Below are positions 1,223-44,438 of a stretch of 64,000 bases of DNA, in pieces. The stretch comes from Spizellomyces sp. 'palustris' (lineage: Eukaryota > Chytridiomycota > Chytridiomycetes > Spizellomycetales > Spizellomycetaceae). The notes below the pieces were generated by a model. The model did no database searches. It was not told where the DNA came from and worked only from the letters and a program-made list of their open reading frames with translations. Location of the stretch: the NCBI GenBank assembly GCA_006535965.1, contig QEAR01000016.1:62001-126000 (forward strand), read 5' to 3'. The position numbers and the translations under genes are program-made. How positions within the stretch are numbered: position 1 is the first letter of the stretch; each line of letters opens with the position of its first letter.

Positions 1223-3464
1223 TCAAGGACTCCATGCCAATGAATAGTACCTCGAAATAGCAACCCCTGGAATCTCGCCGCTATTCTCGTCCGTCAGTTG
1301 CCTACGACGTTTACTGTTTTTGCCAATGTTACCCAGATAGTAAACAGTTTGGTGGGCTTGCGTAAACGATGTACCTAAACCGACAATAGAGGTTAGGCAA
1401 CAAACTTTTAAATAAATGAAATAGATGGTATAACCAACCAATAACAGCTAAAATTTCACCAAATTCGTTCGGCTGGTCTCTGAGCACAACACTATCCGGC
1501 TTAAACGTTGTGAAAATAGAGTAACATTGTTGCTTTCCATAATCATCTGGGCCCTTTTGAATGTATTCCGCGGGGAGAATGGGATAGTCTCCTTGGTCAA
1601 ACGTTAGAGTAACGTTTGCAAGTGACGGGACCGAGACGCACGGGACCGTGCAGAGGTCATGCGATTTGATGCCGGTTTGCGAGCGCCAGAATCCAGATGT
1701 GCTGTTGGAGTTCAAAGACGTGGCGCGGCGGCTATGGGTGGATTTTGTGTCTTTATCATACTTCTTGTAGTCGTCTTTGTAGTCGTCTTTGTAATCGTCT
1801 TTGTATTCAGAGTACCCATACTCCTGACCTGGACATGTAGCGCCAATCAACTTGTGAATCTTATCGACGGCAATTTTGGGGAGCATGATAAAAGGCGACC
1901 CGGTATCGATCAATGCATCGATTTCTTTCTGCTTGGGCTCGTAGGACTGGTACCCATATGAATCTTCACGGGACTCCTTCACCAGCGGAACCAGACTTTG
2001 GCCCACTTTGATTTTCTTCAGGTTGAGTTGCCAATATCTTTTAACGTGACCAGGCCATTAGTCCCTCGCGATATAGTATATCAATAATAGCTCAACGTGA
2101 TTAAAACATACCCATACTGCAACCCTCTCTGCGTAACATGGTTAAACTTGGTGGGCATCTGACCTTCATATCCACAGATCGACAACTGGGCAGTGGTCGG
2201 CTTGGGCTTTGGCGGCGCGTAATAATCGTAGCTTTCATCGCGCTTTCCATACGATGGCGTCGGCTGAGGAGCATACGCTTTGGGCGGTTCCACAGGTGGC
2301 GGGTCCAGAGCAAAAATGGGATCGCAAACACCTTCCTTGACTGCTTGATACAGCCACGGGTCAAAGTCCAGGTCTGGGTTACGCAGTGAGAGCCCTAGTA
2401 TACCGAGTTAGTTGTGGCGGATAGTGTGAGGCCAAAGTCAAAGCTATACCAAAGTGTCCGTCCACAGTCTCATTGGCGCTAACCTCCTTTTGCGTTCTCA
2501 GTCCAAAAGTGACAGTTGCTAAACAGTAAGATACATAAGCCTCAGATTCATACCAGATGACCATATACAAGACCATACCTTCTATGCCACCGACATTGAC
2601 TACATCTCGCCCTTCTTTGACTGTGACCTTTTCTTGGCCGTAGTACTCTAGATCACCTTCACGGCCACCGTCCTGCCATGTCGAGGACTTGTCCGGGTCA
2701 AAACCAAAGTACACAAGCTCGCGCTCGGGCTCGTAGTAATCATTGTCCTTTTTGTACTCATCATACTTGTCGTCGTATGAGTTGTAGTCGTCGTACTTTT
2801 TGGGCTTTTCCTTGTACGCGGCTTTTTTGACCCAGGAGAGTTGCGTGGCGGTGTCGAAGCGGACGGTAAGTTTTTGAGGTGGGGTGCCGATTTCGACTTG
2901 TCCAATAACTATTTTGTCGTTCAACGGTAGAGTTTTTGTTATCATGTCACGTAGTATATGCGCAACGCAACTTACAATCAAACGGATCAAATCCAGCCGG
3001 AACAGATACAGGTCCCTTTTTCTTCTTTGGCTTCGGCTTTGGCTTCTCGTACTTGTCATATTCGTCGTACTTTTGTTCGTGTCCATATCCATATCCAGAT
3101 CCAGTTTCCGCCTTCTCCTCCTTATAAGGTGGCGTCACGTATGCGGGACGGACGGCTGGGTGGTTACTGTACTTTTCACGGATATATCTAAAAGACAGTC
3201 AACAAAAAAGGCAACTGTATTTGAAGCCTTTTTGCAGCAGAGTACATACGCCTGCTCCTCTAGTAATCTGTCCAGAATCGAAGAGTGATGACGGACAGGT
3301 TTGTGCAGCGGAACGCGCAAGATTCTCGGATGGTAGTCATCTTGAGGATACTCATCGCGATAATAGTCCTCATACGGCGGTGGTGGGTGGTAGGGATCAG
3401 CAAAGGTGGTGGAGAGGAGGAGGGAAAGGGTAGTGAATGCCGCTGGCAGAGACCAGAAAGGCAT
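1223..3464 (-). CDS. Secreted pepsin-like aspartic protease (family A1) with Tyr/Asp/Lys-rich inserts
   Basis: The ATG at 3464 opens a signal peptide (MPFWSLPAAFTTLSLLLSTTFA) followed by a Pro/Tyr/Asp-rich region. At least five introns are visible. The first starts at a GTATGT donor just after LLEEQ, and the last joins AVIG to TSFTQAHQTVYYLG, which matches the pepsin C-terminal motif. The first catalytic motif reads FDTATQLSWV, so the Asp is kept but the usual DTG glycine is Ala. The second motif, ALIDTGSPF, is normal. Charged Tyr/Asp/Lys-rich segments are inserted after the first active site and again after the second, the latter including three YKDD units. The protein is probably secreted or cell-wall bound. 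Activity is uncertain because of DTA; it could be a weak or regulatory pepsin homologue. The family call is firm, but the final exon is less certain. Confidence 0.75.
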
Positions 3465-23749: not shown

Positions 23750-24279
23750 GGGCCTGAAATGTGCTTTATACCCAGCACGTAGCATCTACTATAAGAGCAC
23801 TATATTTTTTTTCTTCTATGACAAGCGGCTTTTGTTCTCTATGTCAGAATATATTTCGTTGAGCCAAAAGTTTAAATGAGGCCACAGAACCTCAAATTGC
23901 TTTTTGCGTATTGGATTATATCCATTTGTACAGGTATTGGCGTGCGTGCCACACACCGGCTCCAGAGCCTGGAATAAACACATTGTGGCGATGTGACTTT
24001 AGATAAGCAACTTGTCCACCAACATCTGGACTGTGCCACATGCGCGTTTCCGAGGAATCACCGCCGTAGCCCCGACGAATGAATTCAGCTTTGACACGGT
24101 GGTGGGCGAGTCACTTGCCAATGCGTGGTGAAAGTGCAGAGAAAATATCTTGTAGTGGTGGGCAAGTGTTGGATACCTGTCTAAATAAAATTGCATTTAA
24201 GGGAGGGCATGTTCAAGAGGAAGGCACTAGAGTCCTTGTCTTCAACAATCTACATTTCCTTACGAGAAAAGTGACAATA
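23750..24279. other. Intergenic, no gene recognised
   Basis: This is the 3' flank of the RAX1-like gene and 5' flank of the NADAR gene. The NADAR frame is open upstream to 24079, but that part (VLVFNNLHFLTRKVT) does not resemble the family, so I start the gene at 24280. Confidence 0.5.
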
Positions 24280-24756
24280 ATGAGCGCAGTATACTTTTGG
24301 AAAACTTCTGAGCGTCCCCACGGAATCTTTTCCCAGTGGGCTCCTTCCCCCTTTACCGAAGCTGGCATCACCTTCCCAACAGCCGAACACTACATGATGT
24401 ACCACAAAGCCGTTCTATTCAATGACGAGGTCATTGCCGAGCAAATCCTTGCGGAAACACGTCCAATAAAAGTCAAAGCGCTCGGACAACGTGTGAGGAA
24501 CTTTGTTCAATCCGAATGGGCCGCCCACAGATATCGCATCGTTTTTAATGGCAACATGTTGAAATTTGGGCAAAATCCTGAAATGAAAAAAGTATTGCTT
24601 AATACTGGGAGCAAGGAGATTGTCGAAGCAAGTCCGTATGACAGAATTTGGGGAATCGGGTACACGGCTAGGGCTGCGGCAGGAGCTGATAGGAAGTCAT
24701 GGGGGTTGAATTTGTTAGGAAAAGCATTGATGGATGTTCGGGAAGCTTTAAAGTAG
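24280..24756 (+). CDS. NADAR (YbiA/DUF1768) family protein
   Basis: An intron-less gene of 158 codons. The ATG at 24280 begins MSAVYFWKTSERPHGIFSQW, the typical NADAR start (YFW...FSNW). The conserved segments FPTAEHYMMYHKA, ALGQRVRNF, W and DRIWGIGYTA are all present, including the Glu of the AEHY motif and the Trp-Gly-Ile-Gly loop. NADAR proteins act on N-glycosidic bonds: YbiA cleaves damaged riboflavin intermediates, and others remove ADP-ribose from nucleobases. Which of these applies cannot be told from sequence alone. Length and motifs indicate a complete enzyme. Confidence 0.88.
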   Translation: MSAVYFWKTSERPHGIFSQWAPSPFTEAGITFPTAEHYMMYHKAVLFNDEVIAEQILAETRPIKVKALGQRVRNFVQSEWAAHRYRIVFNGNMLKFGQNPEMKKVLLNTGSKEIVEASPYDRIWGIGYTARAAAGADRKSWGLNLLGKALMDVREALK

Positions 24757-41992: not shown

Positions 41993-44438
41993 TCACTTGG
42001 CCCAGGTCTTGGTCGAGATACCCAAAAGGACGTTGTCAATGATCCTCGTTTTACCAGTCCTAACAGCGCCGGAAAATATTGCACCCTCGGACCCAACTTG
42101 CACCTCTTCCGCCAACGAAAAGGGATTCGCAACACTTAGATACTCCAATTCCACACCATGTTGTACATCAATGATTGCTTTTGCAATTCGAATCAGGTCG
42201 TCGCGGCTCTTTGCCGTACCTTCATTGAAGGCTCTTTGGCCGGCAGATAAAGCCTTGTACAGCACCGGGGCAACAGCTCTCTCCTCTGGCGACAAATACC
42301 TGTTCCTGCTACTCATCGCCAACCCATCTGGCTCACGCACGGTCTCACCGACTACTATTTCGGTAGGAATGAATAAATCGCGAACCATCGTGCGTACAAC
42401 CGCACATTGCTGTGCGTCCTTTTGCCCGAAGAATGCTTTTGTGGGTTGCGTAATGTTCAGAAACTTGGTTACAACGGTTGCGACTCCCCGAAAAAAGTGC
42501 GGACGTATAGACCCCTCCATTTGGTGGGACTTTCCCTTCACTTCAACAAATGTGCCTTGTTGATCCTTGACGTCCAAAACGATACCAGCGGGGTACATTT
42601 CCTTGACGTTGGGAAGAAAGATCACGTCCACACCGACCTCCGTCAACATTGCAACATCTTGCTCCATGGTGCGTGGGTACTTTCCCAGATCCTCATGTGG
42701 AGCGAACTGAGCTGGGTTAACGAATATACTCACAACGACTATATCGCAGGTATTTCTTGCAATGCGGGCTAGGCTTACGTGACCATCATGGAGTGCTCCC
42801 ATGGTAGGCACAAAGCCAACACTGAGGTCTTGTCGCTGCCACTGACGTCGGAGATCGCGATATTCGGCAATCGTCTCAACGATGCGCGGCTTACGGGTGC
42901 TGGTGGAGTATGAGCGCGAGTGGGTGTTGGCGGCTGGAGGACCATGTATCAGCAGGTAGAGCGGTACGGTGCACAGCAGAGACAAACTCACGAGTAGGTG
43001 GACGTACACCCGTACCGAAACGCGTACGCCTCAGATATCTATGTAGTACATCTTCCGCCTGAGTCGGTGATACGCCAAGATCCGTTAGCTTCATATGACT
43101 TCCTGACACCACGTTGTCGCGCTGCAAAAGCTTGACCTGATCACGGGTGAGCGTGAACAAGTTCTCTGGTAGGCGCTCCAGAAAAAATCCTTGGATATAG
43201 CCGACAATCTATATTGGGACCTGATGTCGATAAACCTCATCAGTAGAAACTCAACGTCTGCATGCGTACCCATGGAACGGATATGATCAGCCGCCGTATC
43301 CCAGCCTGATCCAACATAAGCTGCATAAGGTCCCTAAATTCATACACTGAAAACGTTACGCTCAGCTTTAGGTCCTGTTATTACCATATAAAAGACACGT
43401 TACCATGTGGTCCGCCTACTTCCACAATTTTCCCCTTGACCTTATCGGTCGCAATGCACTGTGTTATGGCGCGGGCGAGGTCCTCCACGTAGACTGGGCA
43501 ATTGGAATGAGCAGGTCTAAATCATAACATATTTCATCGAATACGAAGAAGCATACCTGGTTGAAATTTTGTATGTCCCCCTCCAAAAACAGGAACAAAA
43601 GGAAGTATTCTTGCGAGTTTGGCAAAGCGCTAGGTTTTGACACCAGTCTATGGTGAGATGCAACCGATGTAGACTTCGCGGATCGCGCGGGTAAAGAAAT
43701 GTTTGCAGCACATCCTTTCTTACGTTGAAGAAATCATCTTCTTCTCCAAATACGAGGCTGGGACGAACGACAGACGCGTCGGGGTGAACATCAAAAACAG
43801 CCTGTTCTCCAAGTCCTAAGAACCAAGATCGTATCCATTCTTAGCCCAATCGTGGGTGTTTTTGTCCGCACATAGACGCACCTTTCGTCCTTGCATAAGG
43901 CACATCGGACTCCACATCAGCTCCGATGGCACTGACATGCACCAGCTTGGCTCCACTGTCTTTGGCCGCCTGAGCAACCACTCTCGCCCCTTCCTTCTGC
44001 ACTGCATCAAATGTGTACCGTGGTCTCCGCTCGTGCATGATTCCCACCAAGTTGACGACAGCTGATGCTCCGCGACACGCTTCGCGAATGGACTGGGGAT
44101 CGGTTACATCTGCGGCGATCGCAGGTAAGAGCCGACCACCGTGGCTGCTGGAAACCTGAGGATGATCGCGTGGCGAGCGGCATGCGAGTTGAACGGCGGC
44201 AGAGGGTGAGTGTTGAAGAACAGACCTGGCAATATATGGGCCTATAAACCTGAAGCAAAACCATGTAAACACTATACATATCAGTCAGAGGAACCACCCG
44301 AGTTCTCTAGTATACCAACCCTGTTCCTCCAATCACAACAACCTTCTTAGTGGGATTGCTCTCGTTCGAGTAGAACCGTGTGAGCCAGAGTCCCGACTGA
44401 CTGCGACAAAGTCTAATAGGAGTCTTAATGGACCTCAT
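41993..44438 (-). CDS. Predicted fusion: complex I subunit NDUFA9 plus pantoate-beta-alanine ligase (PanC)
   Basis: The ATG at 44438 opens a mitochondrial presequence (MRSIKTPIRLCRSQSGLW...RFYS). The atypical SDR domain of NDUFA9 follows: GGTGFIGPYIA, NLVGIMHERRP, VHVSAIGAD, VRPSLVFGEEDDFF, RFAKLARILPFVPVFGGGHTKFQPVYVEDLA. The usual NDUFA9 C-terminus (FLERLPENLFTLTRDQVKLL... to RRTRFGTGVRPPT) ends at 42992. A 58-nt intron (42991-42934; GTGAGT donor, CTGAT branch, TCCAG acceptor) links in phase to PANTHSRSYSTSTRKPR and then a full PanC with PTMGALHDGH, FVNPAQF, FGQKDAQQ and MSSRNRYLSPEER. PanC has no ATG of its own before its catalytic motif and a stop lies upstream in its frame. NDUFA9 stabilises complex I; PanC makes pantothenate from pantoate and beta-alanine. 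Confidence 0.8.
42890..42933 (-). other. Linker with presequence-like R-x-Y-S motif at the NDUFA9/PanC junction
   Basis: The first codons after the joining intron read PANTHSRSYSTSTRK. This stretch is rich in Ser/Thr/Arg, lacks acidic residues, and contains R-S-Y-S, which resembles the R-x-Y|S site cut by the mitochondrial processing peptidase. It may be the leftover presequence of a once separate PanC, or an internal cleavage site. Confidence 0.45.

Follow-up and report, generated by a model that had tools for sequence, protein, structure and literature searches.

On the minus strand of the 64-kb window (the whole stretch of DNA analyzed, from Spizellomyces sp. 'palustris'), a complete NDUFA9-type complex I subunit is followed by a complete pantothenate synthetase (PanC) in a single frame of 658 residues. 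Joining the eight exons from 44438 to 41993 yields this chain without an internal stop, and the coordinates of the first-pass annotation proved exact. NDUFA9 homology covers residues 30-341 and PanC homology residues 362-649; on the same chain, Pfam recognizes an NAD-dependent epimerase fold (33-244) and a pantoate-beta-alanine ligase (362-647). The features of the gene are collected in Table 1. Upstream on the same strand, 134 nt (44572-44439) separate the stop codon of a threonine dehydratase gene from the NDUFA9 ATG, and the genome is compact here.

Table 1. Features of the NDUFA9-PanC locus, with positions in the window. An arrow (↓) marks a predicted cut in the protein, a slash an exon end.
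Feature	Position	Strand	Evidence or remark
Whole fused gene	41993..44438	(-)	8 exons, 7 introns; 658 aa (58-nt last intron) or 650 aa (82-nt last intron)
NDUFA9 presequence (MRSIKTPIRLCRSQSGLWLTRFY↓SN), residues 1-23	44370..44438	(-)	Net charge +4, no acidic residues; R-X-Y↓S at 21-24
NDUFA9 domain (SDR/Epimerase fold), exons 1-7	43016..44350	(-)	Pfam Epimerase 1e-15; PDB NDUFA9 homologues
Six homology-supported NDUFA9 introns	44319-44250, 43881-43816, 43723-43630, 43556-43494, 43403-43347, 43269-43209	(-)	
In-frame ATG in NDUFA9 exon 7 (Met312), closest possible start of a separate PanC with the last intron spliced	43092..43094	(-)	Sequence
Alternative 82-nt intron (TCG/GTACGG...CCTCCAG), in phase, better supported	42934..43015	(-)	Score 7.95
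58-nt intron of the first-pass annotation (GTGAGT...CCTCCAG), in phase	42934..42991	(-)	Score 3.17, below all 11 local introns
Linker PANTHSRSY↓STSTRK, residues 346-360, with predicted MPP/Icp55-type site R-S-Y↓S-T	42888..42933	(-)	R-X-Y-S motif; positive charge; low model confidence
TAA closing the NDUFA9 frame upon last-intron retention (378-aa form)	42891..42893	(-)	Frame reading
PanC domain, complete, invariant catalytic positions all kept	41993..42887	(-)	TIGR00018 1.3e-95; Pfam PF02569 3e-102; fold match 9b2q E 5e-35

The first half aligns along the whole NDUFA9 chains of solved complex I structures, with E-values between 3e-52 and 1e-18 and 9g83_P as the best match (3e-52). It belongs to the same family as NDUFA9/NUEM/Nuo-40 of complex I, and the alignment with these begins at the Rossmann motif and reaches the C-terminal YLRR region; the NAD(P)-binding GxxGxxG is present as GGTGFIG. 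In its sequence features (charge +4, RFY↓SN), the N-terminus is presequence-like. None of the matched solved chains, which are 330 to 489 residues long, carries an enzyme after its C-terminus, unlike the predicted palustris chain.

The second half matches the PanC family with 319.6 bits for TIGR00018 (NCBIfam panC; cut-off 212.75) and 341.8 bits for PF02569. The catalytic motifs PTMGALHDGH, FVNPxQF, FGQKDAQQ and SSRN are kept, and the columns that are invariant among 22 PanC sequences (21 bacterial ones plus the palustris protein) include T76, M77, H81, H84, N105, Q108, K204, D205, Q208 and S240-N243. The closest fold match is Candida albicans PanC (9b2q), with 46% identity. The evidence shows the PanC half to be of the fungal type, and both halves look functional. 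Candida albicans PanC and Pan6 of S. cerevisiae belong to the same enzyme family; both are described as stand-alone proteins with no NDUFA9 ahead of them.

Between the two halves, the usual boundary of two genes is hard to place. If the last intron is left unspliced, the sole stop of the NDUFA9 frame is the TAA at 42893-42891, about 5 nt ahead of the PanC homology, which starts at 42886. Preceded by a stop, the open PanC frame starts at 43030, and its first ATG lies within PTMGALHDGH, as the first-pass annotation had also stated. From 43030 to 42893 on the minus strand, both frames are open and overlap by about 138 nt. Read in the PanC frame, this region is hydrophobic and without acidic residues (VRVSVRVYVHLLVSLSLLCTVPLYLLIHGPP), which is relevant if the region remains unspliced. 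Two ordinary separate genes would need to overlap here, whereas the spacer ahead of NDUFA9 measures 134 nt. The last intron had been said to join NDUFA9 to PanC in phase, and this agrees with our reading, in which NDUFA9 has no stop before the PanC homology. A single NDUFA9-PanC reading unit is the best-supported gene model, and we consider it quite likely that the fused reading is real.

The splice signal at this junction was evaluated with donor and acceptor models built from those 11 introns of the 64-kb window for which both flanking exons show homology. The 58-nt intron, called strong in the first-pass annotation, does not deserve that word: it reaches 3.17 bits, under all 11 local introns, which range from 4.26 to 10.64 bits when each is scored left out. 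Its GTGAGT donor hexamer is good; the low score is largely due to the exon ending in C, whereas G precedes the donor in 10 of the 11 local introns. Pairing the donor at 43015 with the same acceptor (42934) gives an in-phase intron of 82 nt with a score of 7.95. Exactly where the splice falls is uncertain; on these scores, donor 43015 appears better supported than donor 42991. Donors 43027, 43015, 43009 and 42991 share their phase and all join NDUFA9 in frame to acceptor 42934; hence the fusion frame is independent of the choice of donor, whereas the exact linker depends on it. Intron pairs scoring at least as high as the 58-nt intron are found in 84% of exonic windows of equal length. Dinucleotide shuffles of the junction yield an in-phase intron with at least this score in 41% and with a score of at least 7.9 in 10.5%. 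A+T content is 44-45% in both candidate last introns and 57% in the gene's six others, a slight point against the candidates. The splice signal agrees with a fusion without proving it, and gives weak evidence for the predicted splicing of the last intron. Since this signal by itself is weak, the case for fusion rests on the absence of an NDUFA9 stop together with the absence of a PanC start.

The linker between the domains carries a second presequence-like feature. The published MPP/Icp55 motif is RX(F/Y/I/L)↓(S/A)(S/T) (PMC8847149). R-X-Y-S occurs only twice in the 658 residues, once as RFY↓SN at the expected end of the NDUFA9 presequence (21-24) and once as RSY↓ST between the domains (352-356). 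Windows of 18 residues with a net charge of at least +4 are likewise confined to residues 1-22 and 326-364 of the chain. A linker of 30 residues would contain such a motif by chance with a probability of about 1.4-2.5%, depending on which of two counts is used. Cuts at both sites are predicted to give an NDUFA9 of 331 aa and a PanC of 304 aa. Both are normal sizes, close to the 330 of the nearest NDUFA9 homologue, 9g83_P, and the 306-328 of C. albicans PanC. With donor 43015, the linker loses eight residues and keeps RSY↓ST as it is. The predicted structure model has low confidence in the linker, which is probably flexible. Taken together, these features give the linker the look of a site inside the chain at which a mitochondrial presequence is cleaved. 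Pan6 of S. cerevisiae is reported to have an N-terminal extension that resembles a mitochondrial signal (PMC11428646) and in this respect is like the PanC-linker part of the fused chain. A PanC with a presequence is therefore a plausible ancestor, and what is left of the presequence of a once separate, mitochondrially targeted PanC is probably seen in the linker with RSY↓ST.

We favor, with a probability of roughly 0.5, a fusion that is cleaved internally after import, i.e., a mitochondrial tandem precursor of the Arg5,6 type. Under this explanation, a single nuclear gene would give a single spliced mRNA and a chain of about 650-658 aa, which the NDUFA9 presequence would carry as a whole into the matrix. 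MPP, followed by Icp55, would process the chain at two places, behind Y23 (RFY↓S) and behind Y354 of the linker (RSY↓S). The products would be an NDUFA9 of ~331 aa, destined for complex I, and a PanC of ~304 aa, which would make pantothenate in the matrix. Given the predicted last splice, two complete proteins stand behind one presequence in one frame, and a candidate canonical MPP/Icp55 motif sits at their boundary. The junction is 41% A+T and contains no polyadenylation-like hexamer, versus 56% A+T in neighboring spacers and 57% in introns; the spacer between threonine dehydratase and NDUFA9 is 56% A+T and does contain such hexamers.

The same continuous frame and the several in-phase donors would equally suit a chain that stays uncut, with PanC either residing on complex I or forming part of what is mainly a bifunctional matrix protein. 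We consider this unlikely, given the presequence-type cleavage motif at the domain boundary. PanC enzymes are dimers, so that uncut chains would also link complexes. The NDUFA9 C-terminus, moreover, packs against membrane subunits: in mammals these are ND3/ND6, and in Yarrowia it follows the membrane arm. Its interactions are important for the activity of complex I (PMC8762328). This packing argues against PanC staying attached, and a dimeric enzyme would be awkward at that place. That the chain remains fused with PanC as a stoichiometric passenger of complex I appears quite improbable. Of the single product proposed in the first-pass annotation, the common reading unit thus stands, while a permanent chain becomes less likely with RSY↓ST in the linker. 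Overlapping transcripts are another unlikely arrangement. NDUFA9 would then stop at TAA 42891 on a transcript retaining the intron (378 aa), and PanC would be made from a shorter transcript, starting either at ATG 43094 after splicing or at a non-ATG codon in 43030-42934. The NDUFA9 frame is indeed open through the intron to 42891, the PanC frame open from 43030 lacks acidic residues and offers several near-cognate codons, and a compact genome with 134 nt ahead of NDUFA9 would fit such crowding. Nonetheless, a promoter within the NDUFA9 coding region and zero intergenic spacing would be required, the product from ATG 43094 begins with acidic residues, and the NDUFA9 tail from the retained intron is longer than usual. 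The retained-intron frame past the acceptor also has poor codon scores, albeit over few codons; across the junction as a whole, there are too few codons for scores by frame to discriminate.

An altered junction, caused by a sequence or assembly error or by a lineage-specific mutation that erased the boundary of two normal genes, is highly improbable. The overlapping NDUFA9 and PanC frames lie one base apart, such that a single extra base would connect them with no intron needed, and one missing base would bring ATG 42945 into the PanC frame. With a base missing, however, NDUFA9 runs out of frame into PanC, which still does not give two tidy genes, and with a base in surplus the fusion stays; both domains are intact elsewhere. 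Extremely improbable is a separate PanC gene in which ATG 42945 and 17 codons precede a 53-nt intron (42894-42842) and then PanC. This intron is in phase and its score of 8.27 falls within the range of real introns, but splicing would remove PRIVETIAEYRDLRRQ. This segment matches PanC homologues, so that its loss costs 12.3 bits of the profile match, and the predicted fold shows it with high confidence as a strand and a helix (block pLDDT 97-98, residues 51-70). The intron-like segment at 42842..42894 on the minus strand was rejected as it deletes the conserved PanC N-terminus.

The favored tandem precursor has known counterparts. Fusions in which PanC is one half are also found in cyanobacteria, as bifunctional PanC/(d)CMP kinases. 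In the bacterial pantoate-beta-alanine ligase/(d)CMP kinase proteins of NCBIfam NF010004, PanC is N-terminal and joined to the kinase, while the palustris PanC is C-terminal to NDUFA9. Yeast Arg5,6 is known to mature as a tandem precursor, and several composite precursors have been examined for such sites (PMC8847149, PMC12585908). As is proposed for the palustris gene, Arg5,6 combines one nuclear gene, one N-terminal presequence and two matrix proteins with an internal MPP-type site at the domain boundary; Rsm22-Cox11, Etp1, Atp25 and plant RPS14 composites belong to the same class (PMC8847149, PMC12585908). MPP also cuts engineered internal sites (PMC10450427). The differences from Arg5,6 are the domain pair, a respiratory-chain subunit plus a vitamin enzyme, and cleavage that in palustris is predicted from the sequence. 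None of the papers found in the library searched describes an NDUFA9-PanC fusion, in line with the first-pass annotation, which knew of none. NDUFA9 plus PanC is a new domain pairing within a known arrangement. A bacterial operon origin of this pair was rejected: of 80 bacterial panC genes, including those of alphaproteobacteria, none had an NDUFA9 relative within its fetched flanks (≤10 kb). A search for eukaryotic relatives of PanC or NDUFA9 contaminating viral contigs found none.

Few natural mitochondrial tandem precursors have been described. If the proposed reading is true, a complex I subunit is joined to a vitamin-B5 enzyme, both are forced into equal amounts, and the last step of pantothenate synthesis is located in the matrix of Spizellomyces sp. 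'palustris'. The junction then constitutes a simple natural substrate for testing internal MPP cleavage. If the chain is instead left uncut, an enzyme for a CoA precursor would be fixed to complex I, and the supply of the CoA/phosphopantetheine precursor, which the acyl-carrier subunits of complex I require, would be tied to complex I assembly. We know of no description of a CoA-precursor-supply enzyme attached to complex I.

Elsewhere in the 64-kb window, no tRNA or Rfam features were found. Two aspartic-protease-like ORFs lie on the minus strand at 1332-2057 and 2382-3134, the first with tandem YKDD repeats (YKDDYKDDYKDDYKKYDKD), and an intact NADAR-domain protein (Pfam E-value 5e-58) is encoded on the plus strand at 24070-24753.
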